From: Bacilli bacterium
Lineage (GTDB): Bacteria; Bacillota_I; Bacilli_A; RFN20; CAG-826
NCBI GenBank assembly: GCA_024408495.1
Contig: JAKSUY010000009.1
Coordinates: 1 to 37,150, forward strand
DNA: 37,150 bases
Direction: 5' to 3'
Below, piece after piece: positions 3,372-21,402 of the stretch. Under the pieces are notes generated by a model, which worked only from the letters and a program-made list of their open reading frames with translations, searched no databases and had not been told where the DNA came from. A program made the translations under genes and the position numbers. Every line of letters starts with the position of its first letter. The stretch's first letter is position 1.

Positions 3372-3914
3372 ATGAAAACGATTATCTACTATTTTTCTAA
3401 GACTGGTCATAGCAAGAATTATGCGGAGTCTTTAGCGAGTCGAATTAATTGTGGATCCTTTAATTACAAAAAAATGAAATATAAGCATATGAAGGATTTT
3501 GATACGATTATTTTTGTCTCACCCGTATACGGAAATAAGATTCGCAAAGTAGCGAAATTTCTTAAACTTTATAAAAAAATTAAAGATAAAAATTTATTTA
3601 TAGTAGCGGTTGGTATGCAACCACCGGATCCTGAAAGAAGAAGATCGATTATCACTGTTAATCTATTAGATGATTACCATATTCGTTTATATGAATTAAT
3701 TGGTGGTTTTGATGCAAATAAACTATCGTGGATTATGCGCAAGGTCATGAAGATAGGAATGAAAGCGGCATTAGAAAAAGACCCTGCTTTAAAAGCGCAG
3801 GCTAATTTAGTTGGTAACATCTTTGATGTTCCGCGCGAGTATAATGATATTAACGGGATTGAACGTATTATGGATACAATCCATCGTTTAGAAAGAGAAA
3901 GTAAAGTGGTATGA
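3372..3914 (+). CDS. Flavodoxin-like protein
   Basis: 180 residues starting MKTIIYYFSKTGHSKNYAESLA: the YYFSKTGHSKNYA stretch is a flavodoxin FMN-phosphate loop, followed by IIFVSPVYGNKI, the second flavin-contacting loop. The C-terminal half (residues 90-180) is longer and more basic than in simple flavodoxins and resembles the HemG-like flavodoxin group. I chose ATG at 3372 over TTG at 3363 because it matches the beta strand that opens the fold. It overlaps pth by four bases (ATGA), so the two are probably cotranscribed. Likely a cytoplasmic FMN-dependent redox protein; the partner is unknown. Confidence 0.8.
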   Translation: MKTIIYYFSKTGHSKNYAESLASRINCGSFNYKKMKYKHMKDFDTIIFVSPVYGNKIRKVAKFLKLYKKIKDKNLFIVAVGMQPPDPERRRSIITVNLLDDYHIRLYELIGGFDANKLSWIMRKVMKIGMKAALEKDPALKAQANLVGNIFDVPREYNDINGIERIMDTIHRLERESKVV

Positions 3915-15409: not shown

Positions 15410-17522
15410 GAACAATAGAAAACCACAACCTGAACAGCCAAAGCGCAGTATATTTTTATCAATTCTTCCCTATATTCTAATTATTGCTGCGATTACTGGC
15501 ATTGTTATTTTAATGACGCAAAATATGTGGAATCGTGTCACAGTATTTGATGAAACTGAATTAGATATTAACGTTTTCACGAATAAAGAATACTACATTA
15601 AGAATGCATCTGTATCTACTAATTCACAAGCAACCACTGTTCGTGGAACTGCATATATTAAGGCTGAAGGAAAAACCTTTACTTTCCAGGTAAATGTTGA
15701 TAACGAAGAATATCGTGAAGATTTTAAGACTGCTCGTATAGATATCGCAGCTAATATTTCTTTCCCATATTACAGGGGCCAAAAGATAGAAGGAACTGAC
15801 AATTACGAAGTTTGGCACCACAACTATTTAACTTGTTTCAAAACTAAAGTTGAAGAGGCATATGCAGATTTCCCAACTGAACGTAATAACATCTATTTTG
15901 TCACCAATGATGCCTTCCAAGTCTCTTGGTGGGATGCATGGGGACCAACCATTATCATGTTAGCGATTACGGTTTTAGTAGCATTCTTCTTATTCCGTGG
16001 ATTATCTAGATCAATTGGTGGAACGAATGCGAAAGCCTTAAGTTTCAATCAAAGTAGAGCTAGACGCGTAGATCAAAGTAAAGTACGTTTTAAAGACGTT
16101 GCGGGATGCGATGAAGAAAAAGCCGAAATGGAAGAAGTGGTTCAATATTTAAAAGAACCAGGTAAATTCTCTAAATTAGGTGCTAAATTGCCAAAAGGTA
16201 TCTTACTTGTTGGTCCGCCAGGAACTGGTAAAACTTTACTTGCAAAAGCCGTTGCGGGTGAAGCCGGTGTTCCTTTCTATTCGATTTCTGGTTCAGATTT
16301 CGTTGAAATGTTTGTTGGTGTTGGTGCGGGTCGTGTTCGTGATATGTTCCAAAAGGCAAAACAAACCGCTCCGTGCTTAATCTTCATTGATGAAATTGAT
16401 GCTGTTGGTCGTCAACGTGGTGCTGGTTTAGGTGGTGGTAACGATGAACGAGAACAAACCCTTAACCAATTACTCGTTGAGATGGACGGGTTTGAAGATA
16501 ATTCAGGTATCATTGTTATTGCGGCTACTAACCGCGATGACGTTCTTGATCCAGCTTTACTTAGAGCAGGTCGTTTCGACCGTCAAATTACCGTTAGCTT
16601 ACCAGACAAGAATGGTAGAGAAGCAATCTTTAAGGTTCATAGCGCTAACAAGAAGATTGATCCAAGCGTGAACTTTGAAGCGTTGGCAAAACGCACGGTC
16701 GGATTCTCTGGTGCTGATATTGAAAATATTATGAACGAAGCGGCGATTTTAGCGGTTCGTGAACAACGTGAATTAATCCTCATGAAAGATATTGATGAAG
16801 CGATTGATAGACGAATTGCGGGTCCGGCTAAGAAATCTCGTTCAATGACCGAAAGAGAAAGAAAGACCGTGGCCTTCCACGAAGCTGGTCATGCGATTAT
16901 TGGTCTTACTTTACCAGATTCAGATAAAGTTCAAAAGATTACAATTATTCCACGTGGACAAACTGGTGGCCACGTTTTAATGACTCCAGAAAATGACCGG
17001 TTTATTCTTACTAAGAAAGAATTGTTCGCGCGTATTGTTGGTTATTTAGGTGGACGTAGCAGTGAGGAAATCTTCTTTAAAGATATTTCTACTGGTGCGC
17101 ATAACGATATTGAAGTCGCTACACGTATTGCACGTTTAATGGTGACTGAATATGGTATGTCTAAGTTAGGACCGATTCAGTACGAAAAAGATACTGGTAG
17201 CGTGTTCCTTGGAAGAGACTACACTAATAGCCAAAAGAACTTCTCAGCCCAAGTTGCAGAAGAAATCGATAAGGCTGTTCGTGAAATTATTGACGATGCA
17301 CACGAAGAAGCAAAACGAATCATCACCAAACGTAAAGCTGATGTTACTCTCATTGCTAATACCCTTCTTGAACACGAATCTATTACCGCTGAACAAATTG
17401 AATACTTATTAAAGAATAAAAAACTTCCTCCTGAAAAGAAGGCTAAGCCAGTTAAGGATGATGAACCTAAAGTAGAAGCTAAGCCTGAAGAAAAGAAAGA
17501 AGAAAAGCCAGCAAATAAATAA
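15402..17522 (+). CDS. ftsH: ATP-dependent zinc metalloprotease FtsH
   Basis: 706 residues. One transmembrane segment at about 17-40, an extracytoplasmic domain of about 135 residues, and a second membrane segment at about 180-200. The AAA+ module has Walker A GPPGTGKT (271-278), Walker [13 protein letters not shown] and the arginine-finger region RAGRFDRQI. The protease site is HEAGH (493-497). The tail (last 25 residues) is a Lys/Glu/Pro-rich extension. It degrades membrane and short-lived cytoplasmic proteins, including some tmRNA-tagged ones in other bacteria. AAAGGAG lies before the ATG, inside the end of tilS. The extracytoplasmic domain is larger than in Bacillus. Confidence 0.97.
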
Positions 17523-18499
17523 TGTGGAAGATTGGTAACGTTAAAATTAAATCACAAGTAGTGCTCGCCCCAATGGCGGGCATTACTTCTTTAAGTTACC
17601 GTGAATTCATGAAACCGTTCGGGGTCGGCTATTCAGTAACAGAAATGATAAGCGATGCTGGAATCGTTCATCATAATCAAAAGACCATTGATTATTTAAA
17701 GACCTCTAAATTAGATCGACCAGTCGCATTACAATTATTTGGAAGTAAAGTTGAAACCACATTAAAAGCGATTGATATTATCAATAAGGAATTAAAGATT
17801 CAATATGATTTTTTAGATTTAAACTTTGGTTGTCCAGTAAGAAAGGTTACTAGTTCAGGTGCAGGTTCATCGTGGCTTAAGGACCCTAAGAAATTAGAGA
17901 AGTATGTAAAAGCAATTGTTAAACATTCTAAAAAACCTGTAACCGCAAAGATTCGTTTAGGTATTGATAACGAACATATTAACGTTAAGGAAATAATTGA
18001 TGTTTTAACTAAGGCAGGAGTTAAGGCGATTGCGGTGCATGCTAGAACTACTAAAGAGTTATATAGTGGTAAGCCACATTTCGCTTTATTAAAAGATTTT
18101 GGTAAACATATGAAAGTACCATTAATCGTAAGTGGTAATATCTTCACTTTAGATGATGCGATTAATGCGCTAAAGATCACTAAAGCAGATGCAGTTATGG
18201 TCGCTCGTGGAGGGATCGGAAATCCTCATTTAATTACTCAAATTGATAGATATTTATCGAAAAAGCAAAAAATAGATAATGTAAGTCTATTAAAAAATAT
18301 AGAATATTGTCGTAAATTCGCTAGAATGTTGATTCAAGAAAAAGGTGAAAGAACTGCTATTTCAATATTAAGAAGTATTGCGCCTCGTTTTTTACAAGGT
18401 TTTAAAGATGCCAAGAAATATCGCATAATGCTCAGCCAAAACATCGATGTTTTTAGTGATTTAGATAAAATATTGAAGTCTGTAGAAGACTCTATCTAA
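17522..18499 (+). CDS. dusB: tRNA-dihydrouridine synthase (DusB type)
   Basis: 325 residues, a flavin-dependent TIM barrel. VVLAPMAGITSLSYREFMK, VALQLFGSK, DLNFGCPVRKVTSSGAGS (the catalytic Cys), KPVTAKIRLGID, AVHARTTKELYSGKPHF and VMVARGGIGNPHLI are the Dus blocks in order. It reduces uridines in the tRNA D-loop using NAD(P)H. The start overlaps the ftsH stop by one base (TAATG). In Bacillus dusB also precedes lysS; here a regulator gene has been inserted between them. Confidence 0.94.
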   Translation: MWKIGNVKIKSQVVLAPMAGITSLSYREFMKPFGVGYSVTEMISDAGIVHHNQKTIDYLKTSKLDRPVALQLFGSKVETTLKAIDIINKELKIQYDFLDLNFGCPVRKVTSSGAGSSWLKDPKKLEKYVKAIVKHSKKPVTAKIRLGIDNEHINVKEIIDVLTKAGVKAIAVHARTTKELYSGKPHFALLKDFGKHMKVPLIVSGNIFTLDDAINALKITKADAVMVARGGIGNPHLITQIDRYLSKKQKIDNVSLLKNIEYCRKFARMLIQEKGERTAISILRSIAPRFLQGFKDAKKYRIMLSQNIDVFSDLDKILKSVEDSI

Positions 18500-18530
18500 T
18501 TATTTCGATAAAAAAATAAATATCGACACA

Positions 18531-18587
18531 ATGCAACGGAAACATTTGAGTTGTATATTAAATGCAACGGAAACATTTGAGTTGCAT
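18531..18587. repeat. Two tandem 23-base repeats with internal dyad, putative operators
   Basis: Copies at 18531-18553 and 18562-18584 are identical over 23 bases. Each carries a dyad: CAAC, 12 bases (GGAAACATTTGA), GTTG; in the second copy the arms extend to ATGCAAC/GTTGCAT (18562-18587). Start-to-start distance is 31 bases, close to three helical turns. The second copy ends in TTGCAT (18582-18587), which sits as a -35 sixteen bases before TAAAAT (18604-18609). This layout fits repressor binding sites. Confidence 0.7.
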
Positions 18588-18624
18588 TAATTCTGTTTTA
18601 TTGTAAAATAAAATTAGCAGTGTT
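18582..18624 (+). promoter_or_regulatory. Promoter of the AlbA_2-type regulator gene
   Basis: TTGCAT, 16-base spacer, TAAAAT (18604-18609). The expected start near 18616 leaves about nine leader bases before ATG 18625, with no Shine-Dalgarno. Confidence 0.5.
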
Positions 18625-19875
18625 ATGGAAAGAGAAAATCAATTTTTAGAGTATAAAGAAATCGTAAATAAATCATATTTGAAAACTGTATCTGCTTATG
18701 CAAATTATCACGATGGTTTAATTATTTTTGGAGTAACCGATAAATTGAAAACTGTCGGAGTTGAAAGTCCTCATTCTGTTTGCTTAGATATCGAAAATCA
18801 AATTAATGATTCAATTAAGCCTAAACCAGAATATTCTTTAAAAATTAATAGCGATCATACCATCGCGTTATCGGTAAGGAAAGGTTTGTCAACTCCTTAT
18901 CGCTTAAACGGGAAAGCGTATTGCCGCCATGACACTTCTACAGTTGAAGTAGATACAGTAGAAGAAAATCGGCTTGTATTATTTGGTAAAAATCTAAGTT
19001 TTGAAGAATTATCAACAAATGAAGTTAATTTTAAATTCACCTATTTGGCTAAAGAATTAGTTAAGCGGCTGAAGTTATCTGATTTTAATATTGATACTTT
19101 GAAAAGTTTAAATCTTTATAGTAGTGACGGAAAATATAATAATGCCGCAGCGCTCTTAGCAGATAAAAATAGTTTTTCCGGGGTGGATATTGTCATCTTT
19201 ACCAATTCTAATAACGAAATGAAAAGTCGGTTTAATCTATCCGGACAATCAATTTTAAAACAGTACAGTATTGCTCTTGATATATATCAAAAAGAGTATG
19301 TTATAGAAACTATTGACAGTGGATATCGTCAACAAAAAGAATTAGTTCCTTTAGTTGCATTTCGCGAAGCGATTGCCAATGCATTGGTGCATAGAACTTG
19401 GGATATTCCCGCTAATATTAAAGTGGAGATGCACCCACATTCAATTATTATCACCTCTCCAGGAGGATTAAATACTAGGATGAGTAAAGAAGAATTTCTT
19501 AATGGTAGTTTTTCTTTATTACGTAATACAATTCTTGCTAATGTTTTTCATCGTCTCAATATAATTGAAGCTTTTGCGACTGGAATTAAAAGAATTAAAC
19601 GCTCATATGAAAATAGCATGCAAAAGCCATATTTTCGGATTGCTCCTAATTCTATATCAGTAATGCTACCAACTGTTAATTCGGTACAATTAACTAAACC
19701 AGAGCAAGTTGTTTTAGGCGCATTAAAAAACGTTCAATGGTTTAGTCGAGGCGATTTAGAAAATGCAACAAAATTTAAAAAAGATAAGTTGATACGAGTG
19801 CTAAACGGATTAATAAAGAAAAATTTAATTAAAAAAACTGGAATTAATCGTTCTACTTATTATCAGAAACTTTAA
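18625..19875 (+). CDS. AlbA_2 / RecG-like putative transcriptional regulator
   Basis: 416 residues in three parts. Residues 1-115 match the AlbA_2 (Schlafen-like) domain: ENQFLEYKE, VSAYANYHDGLIIFGVTDK, PYRLNGKAYCRH. Residues about 230-330 match the HATPase_c_4-type module found behind AlbA_2: VAFREAIANALVHRTWDIPA, IIITSPGGLNTRMSKEEF, NVFHRLNIIEAFATGIKRIK. The last 65 residues look like a winged helix (LGALKNVQWFSRGDLENATK). Such proteins are annotated as DNA-binding regulators; few have known targets. It stands alone between dusB and lysS behind two tandem dyad repeats, suggesting autoregulation. It may be a later insertion into a conserved cluster. Confidence 0.82.
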   Translation: MERENQFLEYKEIVNKSYLKTVSAYANYHDGLIIFGVTDKLKTVGVESPHSVCLDIENQINDSIKPKPEYSLKINSDHTIALSVRKGLSTPYRLNGKAYCRHDTSTVEVDTVEENRLVLFGKNLSFEELSTNEVNFKFTYLAKELVKRLKLSDFNIDTLKSLNLYSSDGKYNNAAALLADKNSFSGVDIVIFTNSNNEMKSRFNLSGQSILKQYSIALDIYQKEYVIETIDSGYRQQKELVPLVAFREAIANALVHRTWDIPANIKVEMHPHSIIITSPGGLNTRMSKEEFLNGSFSLLRNTILANVFHRLNIIEAFATGIKRIKRSYENSMQKPYFRIAPNSISVMLPTVNSVQLTKPEQVVLGALKNVQWFSRGDLENATKFKKDKLIRVLNGLIKKNLIKKTGINRSTYYQKL

Positions 19876-19914
19876 TAAATAATTAAACAAGTTATAATTA
19901 TTTAGGAGATATTT

Positions 19915-21402
19915 ATGGAAAACAATCTAACTGATCAAGAAAAAGTAAGAAGAGATAAACTCCCCAAGTATAAAGAATTAGGAGTTGATCCTTTTGGTCA
20001 TAAATTTATTCGCACTCATTTAATAAGCGAAGCGCGTAAATTGGCCGAAGGCAAAGATAACGCTAAATTAGAACAAGAAAATATCATTGTTACTTTAGCG
20101 GGTCGTATTAATGCTTTAAGACGTATGGGCAAGGCCTCGTTTATGAATATCCAAGATAAGACTGGTAAGATTCAAGCTTATGTTGGCATTGATATTATTG
20201 GCGATAAACCTTATGAATTATTTAAGTTAGCGGATATTGGCGATATCGTTGGTATCAAAGGTCGCTTAATGTTAACCCGTACTGGTGAATTAACTGTTAG
20301 AGTGACTGAATACACACATTTAACTAAATCACTTAGGCCGTTCCCTGAGAAGTATCATGGTTTAACTGATGTCGAAGAAAGATATCGTCATCGTTATGTT
20401 GATTTAATCGTAAACGAAAACGCAAAGAAGAATGCAATAATGCGTCCTAAAGTCATTAGAGCGATGCAAAAATATTTTGATTCATTAGGATTTATTGAAG
20501 TAGAGACTAGTGTATTATCGCCTATTTTAGGCGGTGCGAATGCTCGTCCGTTCGTGACGCATCATAATACTTTAGATAAAGACTTCTATCTTAGAATCGC
20601 AACCGAATTACCACTTAAGAAATTATTAGTCGGTGGTCTAGAACGTGTTTATGAAATAGGTAGATTATTCCGTAACGAAGGCATGGACACTACTCATAAT
20701 CCAGAATTCACAACTGTGGAATTATATCAAGCATATGGTGACTTACAAGATATGAAAGAAATATGTGAAGGTGTGATTAGAGAAATCGCTAAAACGGTGG
20801 TAGGCACTACTTCATTACCATACGATGATAAAACTATTGATGTGGGCAAACCATTTAGATGGGTATCTATGGCGGAATTAATTAAAGAAGCAACTGGTAT
20901 TGATTTTACTCAAGATATTAAATTTGAAGATGCTAAAAAATTAGCAGAACAGCATCAAGTTGAATATGATCCGAAACTTGTAACCTCTACTGGCCAAATT
21001 ATGAATGCATTCTTTGAAAAATTCTGTGAAGAGAAATTAATTCAACCAACCTTCGTTCATACTTATCCAATCGAAGTATCTCCTTTAACTAAGAAGAGTA
21101 AAGATCCTAGATTCGTTGAACGTTTTGAATTATTTATTGATGGTCACGAGATGGCGAATGCTTATACTGAACTTAATGATCCAATCGATCAAAAAGAAAG
21201 ATTCGTTGAACAATTAAAAGCCAAAGAAAGAGGCGATGAAGAGGCCAACGAAATGGATTATGATTTCTTAGAAGCTTTAGAGTATGGTATGCCTCCAGCA
21301 GGTGGTATTGGTATTGGAATCGATCGTTTAGTGATGCTTATGTGTAACGAAAAGAGCATACGTGAAGTCATTCTCTTCCCAACTATGAAAGATCGTAAAT
21401 AA
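19915..21402 (+). CDS. lysS: Lysyl-tRNA synthetase, class II
   Basis: 495 residues, normal length. An N-terminal OB-fold (residues about 55-150, VTLAGRINALRRMGKASFMN) is followed by the class II core: motif 1 around AIMRPKVIRAMQKYFDS, motif 2 FRNEGMDTTHNPEFTTVELY, motif 3 GGIGIGIDRLVMLM. It charges tRNA-Lys. TAGGAGA lies upstream of the ATG. The dusB-lysS association is kept as in Bacillus apart from the inserted regulator. Confidence 0.98.
   Translation: MENNLTDQEKVRRDKLPKYKELGVDPFGHKFIRTHLISEARKLAEGKDNAKLEQENIIVTLAGRINALRRMGKASFMNIQDKTGKIQAYVGIDIIGDKPYELFKLADIGDIVGIKGRLMLTRTGELTVRVTEYTHLTKSLRPFPEKYHGLTDVEERYRHRYVDLIVNENAKKNAIMRPKVIRAMQKYFDSLGFIEVETSVLSPILGGANARPFVTHHNTLDKDFYLRIATELPLKKLLVGGLERVYEIGRLFRNEGMDTTHNPEFTTVELYQAYGDLQDMKEICEGVIREIAKTVVGTTSLPYDDKTIDVGKPFRWVSMAELIKEATGIDFTQDIKFEDAKKLAEQHQVEYDPKLVTSTGQIMNAFFEKFCEEKLIQPTFVHTYPIEVSPLTKKSKDPRFVERFELFIDGHEMANAYTELNDPIDQKERFVEQLKAKERGDEEANEMDYDFLEALEYGMPPAGGIGIGIDRLVMLMCNEKSIREVILFPTMKDRK

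Follow-up and report, generated by a model that had tools for sequence, protein, structure and literature searches.

The locus between dusB and lysS in the window (the whole stretch of 37,150 nucleotides that was analysed, from contig JAKSUY010000009.1 of a Bacilli bacterium) is very probably a horizontally acquired, single-gene unit of the Schlafen type that represses itself, a reading that we draw from sequence comparison. Two nearly identical dyads precede the gene, the proximal one overlaps its predicted promoter, and the letters of the dyads change from lineage to lineage together with one helix of the encoded protein. The features of the locus are listed in Table 1.

Table 1. Features of the Schlafen-type unit and its flanks, in positions of the window.
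Feature	Position	Strand	Basis
dusB, upstream flank of the inserted cassette	17522..18499	+	Pfam; empty-site comparison
Operator dyad O2 (predicted), ATGCAAC-N12-GTTGTAT	18531..18556	+	ATGCAACGGAAACATTTGAGTTGTAT; predicted
Operator dyad O1 (predicted), ATGCAAC-N12-GTTGCAT, overlapping the promoter	18562..18587	+	ATGCAACGGAAACATTTGAGTTGCAT; predicted; layout recurs in relatives
Predicted -35 box TTGCAT, within the right half-site of O1	18582..18587	+	sequence; -10 geometry of relatives
Predicted -10 box TAAAAT, 16-bp spacer	18604..18609	+	sequence; -10 geometry of relatives
Inferred transcript start	about 18616	+	some 9 nt ahead of the ATG (18625)
Gene for the 416-aa protein with Schlafen AlbA_2, GHKL-like (HATPase_c_4) and winged-helix parts	18625..19875	+	intact frame; Pfam, model
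Schlafen/AlbA_2 domain (aa 4-109) with E4, E9 and D39 as putative RNase triad	18634..18951	+	Pfam; SLFN13 5yd0 alignment
GHKL ATPase-like domain, about aa 181-354	19165..19686	+	Pfam HATPase_c_4; SpoIIAB fold match
MarR/SarZ-like winged helix at the C-terminus (aa 355-416), proposed to read the operator	19687..19872	+	model, fold match, co-variation
Recognition helix, aa 386-398 (Arg391 codon 19795-19797)	19780..19818	+	model, co-variation
lysS, downstream flank of the inserted cassette	19915..21402	+	Pfam; empty-site comparison

O1 and O2 repeat 27 nt in direct orientation, with one mismatch between the copies, at a start-to-start distance of 31 bp, well beyond chance; the three helical turns given for the copies in an earlier note on this DNA agree with that measured spacing. 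The note had called the copies identical, which holds for the first 24 bases and fails beyond them, and the CAAC-N12-GTTG that it saw in each 23-base copy is present, albeit as part of a wider dyad, ATGCAAC-N12-GTTGCAT, with AAA and TTT inside. Its proposal that the second copy supplies the -35 box stands, as this box lies within the right half-site of O1, and a start about nine bases before the gene follows from the placement of the two predicted boxes relative to the ATG. Comparison with relatives supports this predicted promoter: in 26 dyad-bearing loci the right half-site and the -10 box keep a fixed distance, 24-25 bp from the first base of the one to that of the other, which makes the half-site the -35 box, with a 17-bp spacer. 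Between 18610 and 18624 the short leader (about 9 nt) has no clear Shine-Dalgarno sequence; most relatives have GGAGG instead.

Relatives of the gene were drawn from whole genomes and from species genomes. The case made in the earlier note hung on orthologues carrying such a repeat, and they do have a dyad of this kind upstream, again with N12 between its halves. Such a palindrome is present in nearly all close relatives across several phyla; the set comprises about 80, from Bacillota, Actinomycetota, spirochaetes and Chloroflexi, with the dyad at the matching promoter position. Of 75 non-redundant upstream regions, 34 have a perfect 7+7 dyad with a gap of 12, where dinucleotide shuffles give 1.2 on average; in the control, upstream regions of neighbouring genes, it occurs in 15 of 388. 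Convergent half-sites at the N12 distance are seen at 43 loci, and 22 loci share the window's arrangement of copies in one orientation at a 31-bp distance (ca. 0.35 per spacing in mononucleotide shuffles); L106, L109 and L115 are without a clear dyad of the N12 form. The half-site letters differ by lineage, TGCAAC being the commonest beside TCAATC, CCGAC, GTACGAG, GACAC and others. The dyad-bearing relatives sit in unrelated gene neighbourhoods, and no conserved neighbour or partner gene is shared across them; since no neighbour family is common to the loci, the dyad travels with the window-type gene and not with a partner. Close relatives are rare in viral and plasmid records.

In distant paralogues (27-30% identity), one of which belongs to the same genome, the place of the dyads around the promoter is taken by arrays of 11-12-bp direct repeats, for example AAGTGTGGAAT; such arrays lie at about 3500-3620 (minus strand) of L128 and upstream of the genes in L027, L016 and L017, and are probably private operators of the same kind. 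Another subfamily (upstream regions of L022 and L024) has TGGGTCATTT...AAATGACCCA arms that flank the -10 box.

The half-sites vary with the C-terminal winged helix, in our view strong evidence for binding of the dyad by the gene's own product. With half-sites registered partly by eye and a partial correction for shared ancestry, half-site distance is correlated with winged-helix distance, given the rest of the protein, at a partial Mantel r of 0.364 (permutation maximum 0.163); the other domains give -0.18, 0.00 and -0.11. In a sliding window the co-variation peaks (0.49) at aa 381-395, the recognition helix of the structure model. Where the half-site has G at position 2, all 55 proteins have Arg391, against 2 of the other 25. 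Of the 67 columns conserved to at least 95% in this G2 class, column 391 is changed in 8 of 10 other lineages and every other column in one at most. At held-out loci, read by eye, 8 of 8 Arg391 proteins have G2 half-sites (L149 in one arm only), and proteins without this arginine mostly have none, the exceptions being L133 (Lys), L135 (Lys, mixed) and L151 (mixed). On the tree, half-site and residue change about 6 times each, and a sign test would need more than the 3 independent pairs that have support. The complete autoregulatory circuit that the earlier note had seen here is thus strengthened, and most probably the window protein itself reads the dyad and represses its own gene.

In Pfam the protein matches AlbA_2 (PF04326; aa 4-109, 57.2 bits, gathering cut-off 25.3) and HATPase_c_4 (aa 264-348), and NCBIfam has no family for it. 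The structure model (pLDDT 91) has three parts. A fold search with the model likens the Schlafen-like domain to the tRNase domain of SAMD9, to SLFN13 and to 2kyy, and fold comparison by range matches the GHKL domain to SpoIIAB (Z 10.9) and the winged helix to MarR/SarZ (Z 10.9, rmsd 1.2 over 63 residues), so that Pfam, model and fold matches give the order Schlafen, GHKL-like, winged helix. In a profile alignment to 5yd0, with a constant offset of 13, E4, E9 and D39 fall on E205, E210 and D248, the RNase triad of SLFN13 (PMC5862951); in the gene family E9 is invariant and E4 and D39 are conserved to at least 90%. By sequence and model, the AlbA_2 part looks like a Schlafen RNase domain with putative RNase activity, and the protein is probably a phage-defence or stress RNase. 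The earlier note had spoken of an AlbA_2/HATPase-like regulator: both domains are there, but the part that would read DNA is a previously unannotated C-terminal winged helix and not AlbA_2. In PADLOC the only matches are weak ones, to Argonaute-linked models, and they cover the GHKL part. A match to a PHROGs 'DNA helicase' family was set aside as annotation carry-over.

Regulon members, which the earlier note had hoped to find by a genome search for ATGCAAC-N12-GTTGCAT, did not appear: in 1,282,060 bases of a genome about 85% complete, only the two window sites match with at most one mismatch. Allowing two mismatches gives 7 places, and the reversed pattern used as control gives 0. In G000, G114, G124, G143, G193 and G196 the sites are confined to the surroundings of the own gene, and G151 has one weak extra match. 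We rejected a global or pathway regulator, as further operator copies are without support in the protein's own genome (at ca. 85% completeness) and similarly in relatives. Since the sites are confined to its own gene, the protein would probably be dedicated to its own locus, as an effector under its own repression rather than a protein in charge of a regulon; 'auto-repressed Schlafen RNase effector' is probably a better description than 'regulator'.

In the mechanism that we propose, the winged helix would bind, as a dimer, the TGCAACgnAAA half-sites of each dyad, and the two dyads, three turns apart, would place two dimers on one face of the DNA. At rest, dimers would occupy both dyads, with the promoter closed and the protein level low, a state that is well supported; because the proximal dyad covers the -35 box, dimer binding could block RNA polymerase. 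A signal, probably received via the GHKL domain (a nucleotide or something phage-derived), would then release the protein, giving higher expression together with a freed, potentially growth-arresting RNase. We infer this second step, from signal to derepression and RNase, from domain content and the literature (PMC12839542, PMC5862951, PMC7554251).

In sister genomes dusB and lysS abut, with neither gene nor dyads between them; the unit was therefore inserted into the operon, and the insertion asserted in the earlier note has its empty site in close relatives. In the window the unit (18499-19915) interrupts the row ftsH-dusB-lysS. As lysS starts 39 bp downstream of it, this essential gene may be partly under the unit's control.

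Patchy presence, unrelated neighbours and the empty site would also suit a mobile cassette of one gene whose ends or recombination sites are the dyads, with the promoter overlap secondary. So would the second, near-identical dyad found in direct orientation 35-146 bp past the stop codon at about 12 loci (L066, L077, L041, L042, L037, L036, L043, L046, L052, L072, L098 and L103), among which L066 and L077 have the gene flanked by ca. 60-bp direct repeats and L042 has four dyad copies around it. Simple promoter blocking does not need these downstream copies, which counts against our main reading; looping, duplication or cassette ends are possible explanations. However, most loci, the window included, are without a downstream copy, the unit holds no transposase or recombinase, and the fixed -35/-10 geometry and the match of half-site to recognition helix are typical of an operator, so that we consider it improbable that the dyads are primarily cassette ends. 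Second gene copies were rejected as the source of the downstream dyads, most of these loci having none (L098 has a distant relative downstream). A role of the dyad as terminator was likewise rejected: the upstream copies precede the -10 box, and of the loci with a downstream copy, L052 alone shows a T-run there.

Less probable still is a protein that activates its own promoter from the dyads. Two in-phase upstream dyads could help to recruit polymerase, and TTGCAT is a non-consensus -35 box; yet the proximal dyad lies on the -35 box itself in the window and in 26 relatives, the classical position of a repressor, and the -10 boxes of the relatives are near consensus, from which we infer repression over activation. 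It is very unlikely indeed that the repeats act as RNA (a hairpin leader, or the RNA antitoxin of a type III-like toxin unit): RNA antitoxins do have their repeats upstream of an RNase gene, and these repeats precede a putative one, but there is no Rfam match, the co-variation is with a DNA-reading helix, and the dyads, with the -10 box downstream of them, would be absent from the transcript of that promoter.

Self-repression, the reading that we prefer, bears on a group of proteins increasingly recognised as antiviral RNases, the bacterial Schlafens, for which a limited literature search found no description of a silencing mechanism; here the predicted control element of a Schlafen gene is visible from the sequence alone. 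The residue-to-base rule (Arg391 to G2 of the half-site) gives directly testable mutants, and the relatives offer about 80 natural protein/operator pairs with differing specificities. The common annotation 'transcriptional regulator / RecG-related helicase' is corrected in that the DNA-reading part probably serves self-control and not a regulon. More tentatively, and at somewhat under even chances, a whole clade of single-protein Schlafen effectors might regulate itself in this way, with RNase, GHKL sensor and DNA reader in one chain and a private, co-evolved operator in each lineage; the paired dyads on either side of the gene in some of them hint at looping or at a self-insulating mobile unit.

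Among known systems, proteins with a Schlafen RNase, a minimal histidine-kinase-like part and a wHTH are listed as auxiliary effectors for BREX and related systems in PMC12839542, a paper that refers to a preprint on anti-phage defence by bacterial Schlafens. The window protein has their domain order (Schlafen, GHKL/histidine-kinase-like, winged helix); unlike them, its gene stands alone between the housekeeping genes dusB and lysS, with no BREX core genes adjoining. The main text of PMC12839542 makes no mention of an operator or of autoregulation of these effectors. According to the available part of PMC7554251, TrlG of Photorhabdus has the same two Pfam domains (AlbA_2 and HATPase_c_4), restricts growth at higher temperature and is horizontally spread, but sits in an operon with trlF and a putative regulator, trlR, unlike the lone window gene; that part of the source gives no description of a self-operator. 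The best full-length fold match is DIP2311 of Corynebacterium diphtheriae (PDB 3lmm, a structural-genomics entry without function; Foldseek E 9.9e-23, Z 24.8), at about 16% identity and with large domain shifts. From general knowledge, the closest likeness in control is to BrxR/CapW of the WYL family, auto-repressors of defence operons that bind an inverted repeat over the promoter of their own unit. BrxR/CapW is a separate repressor protein, whereas in the window the proposed DNA reader and the putative effector are joined in one chain.
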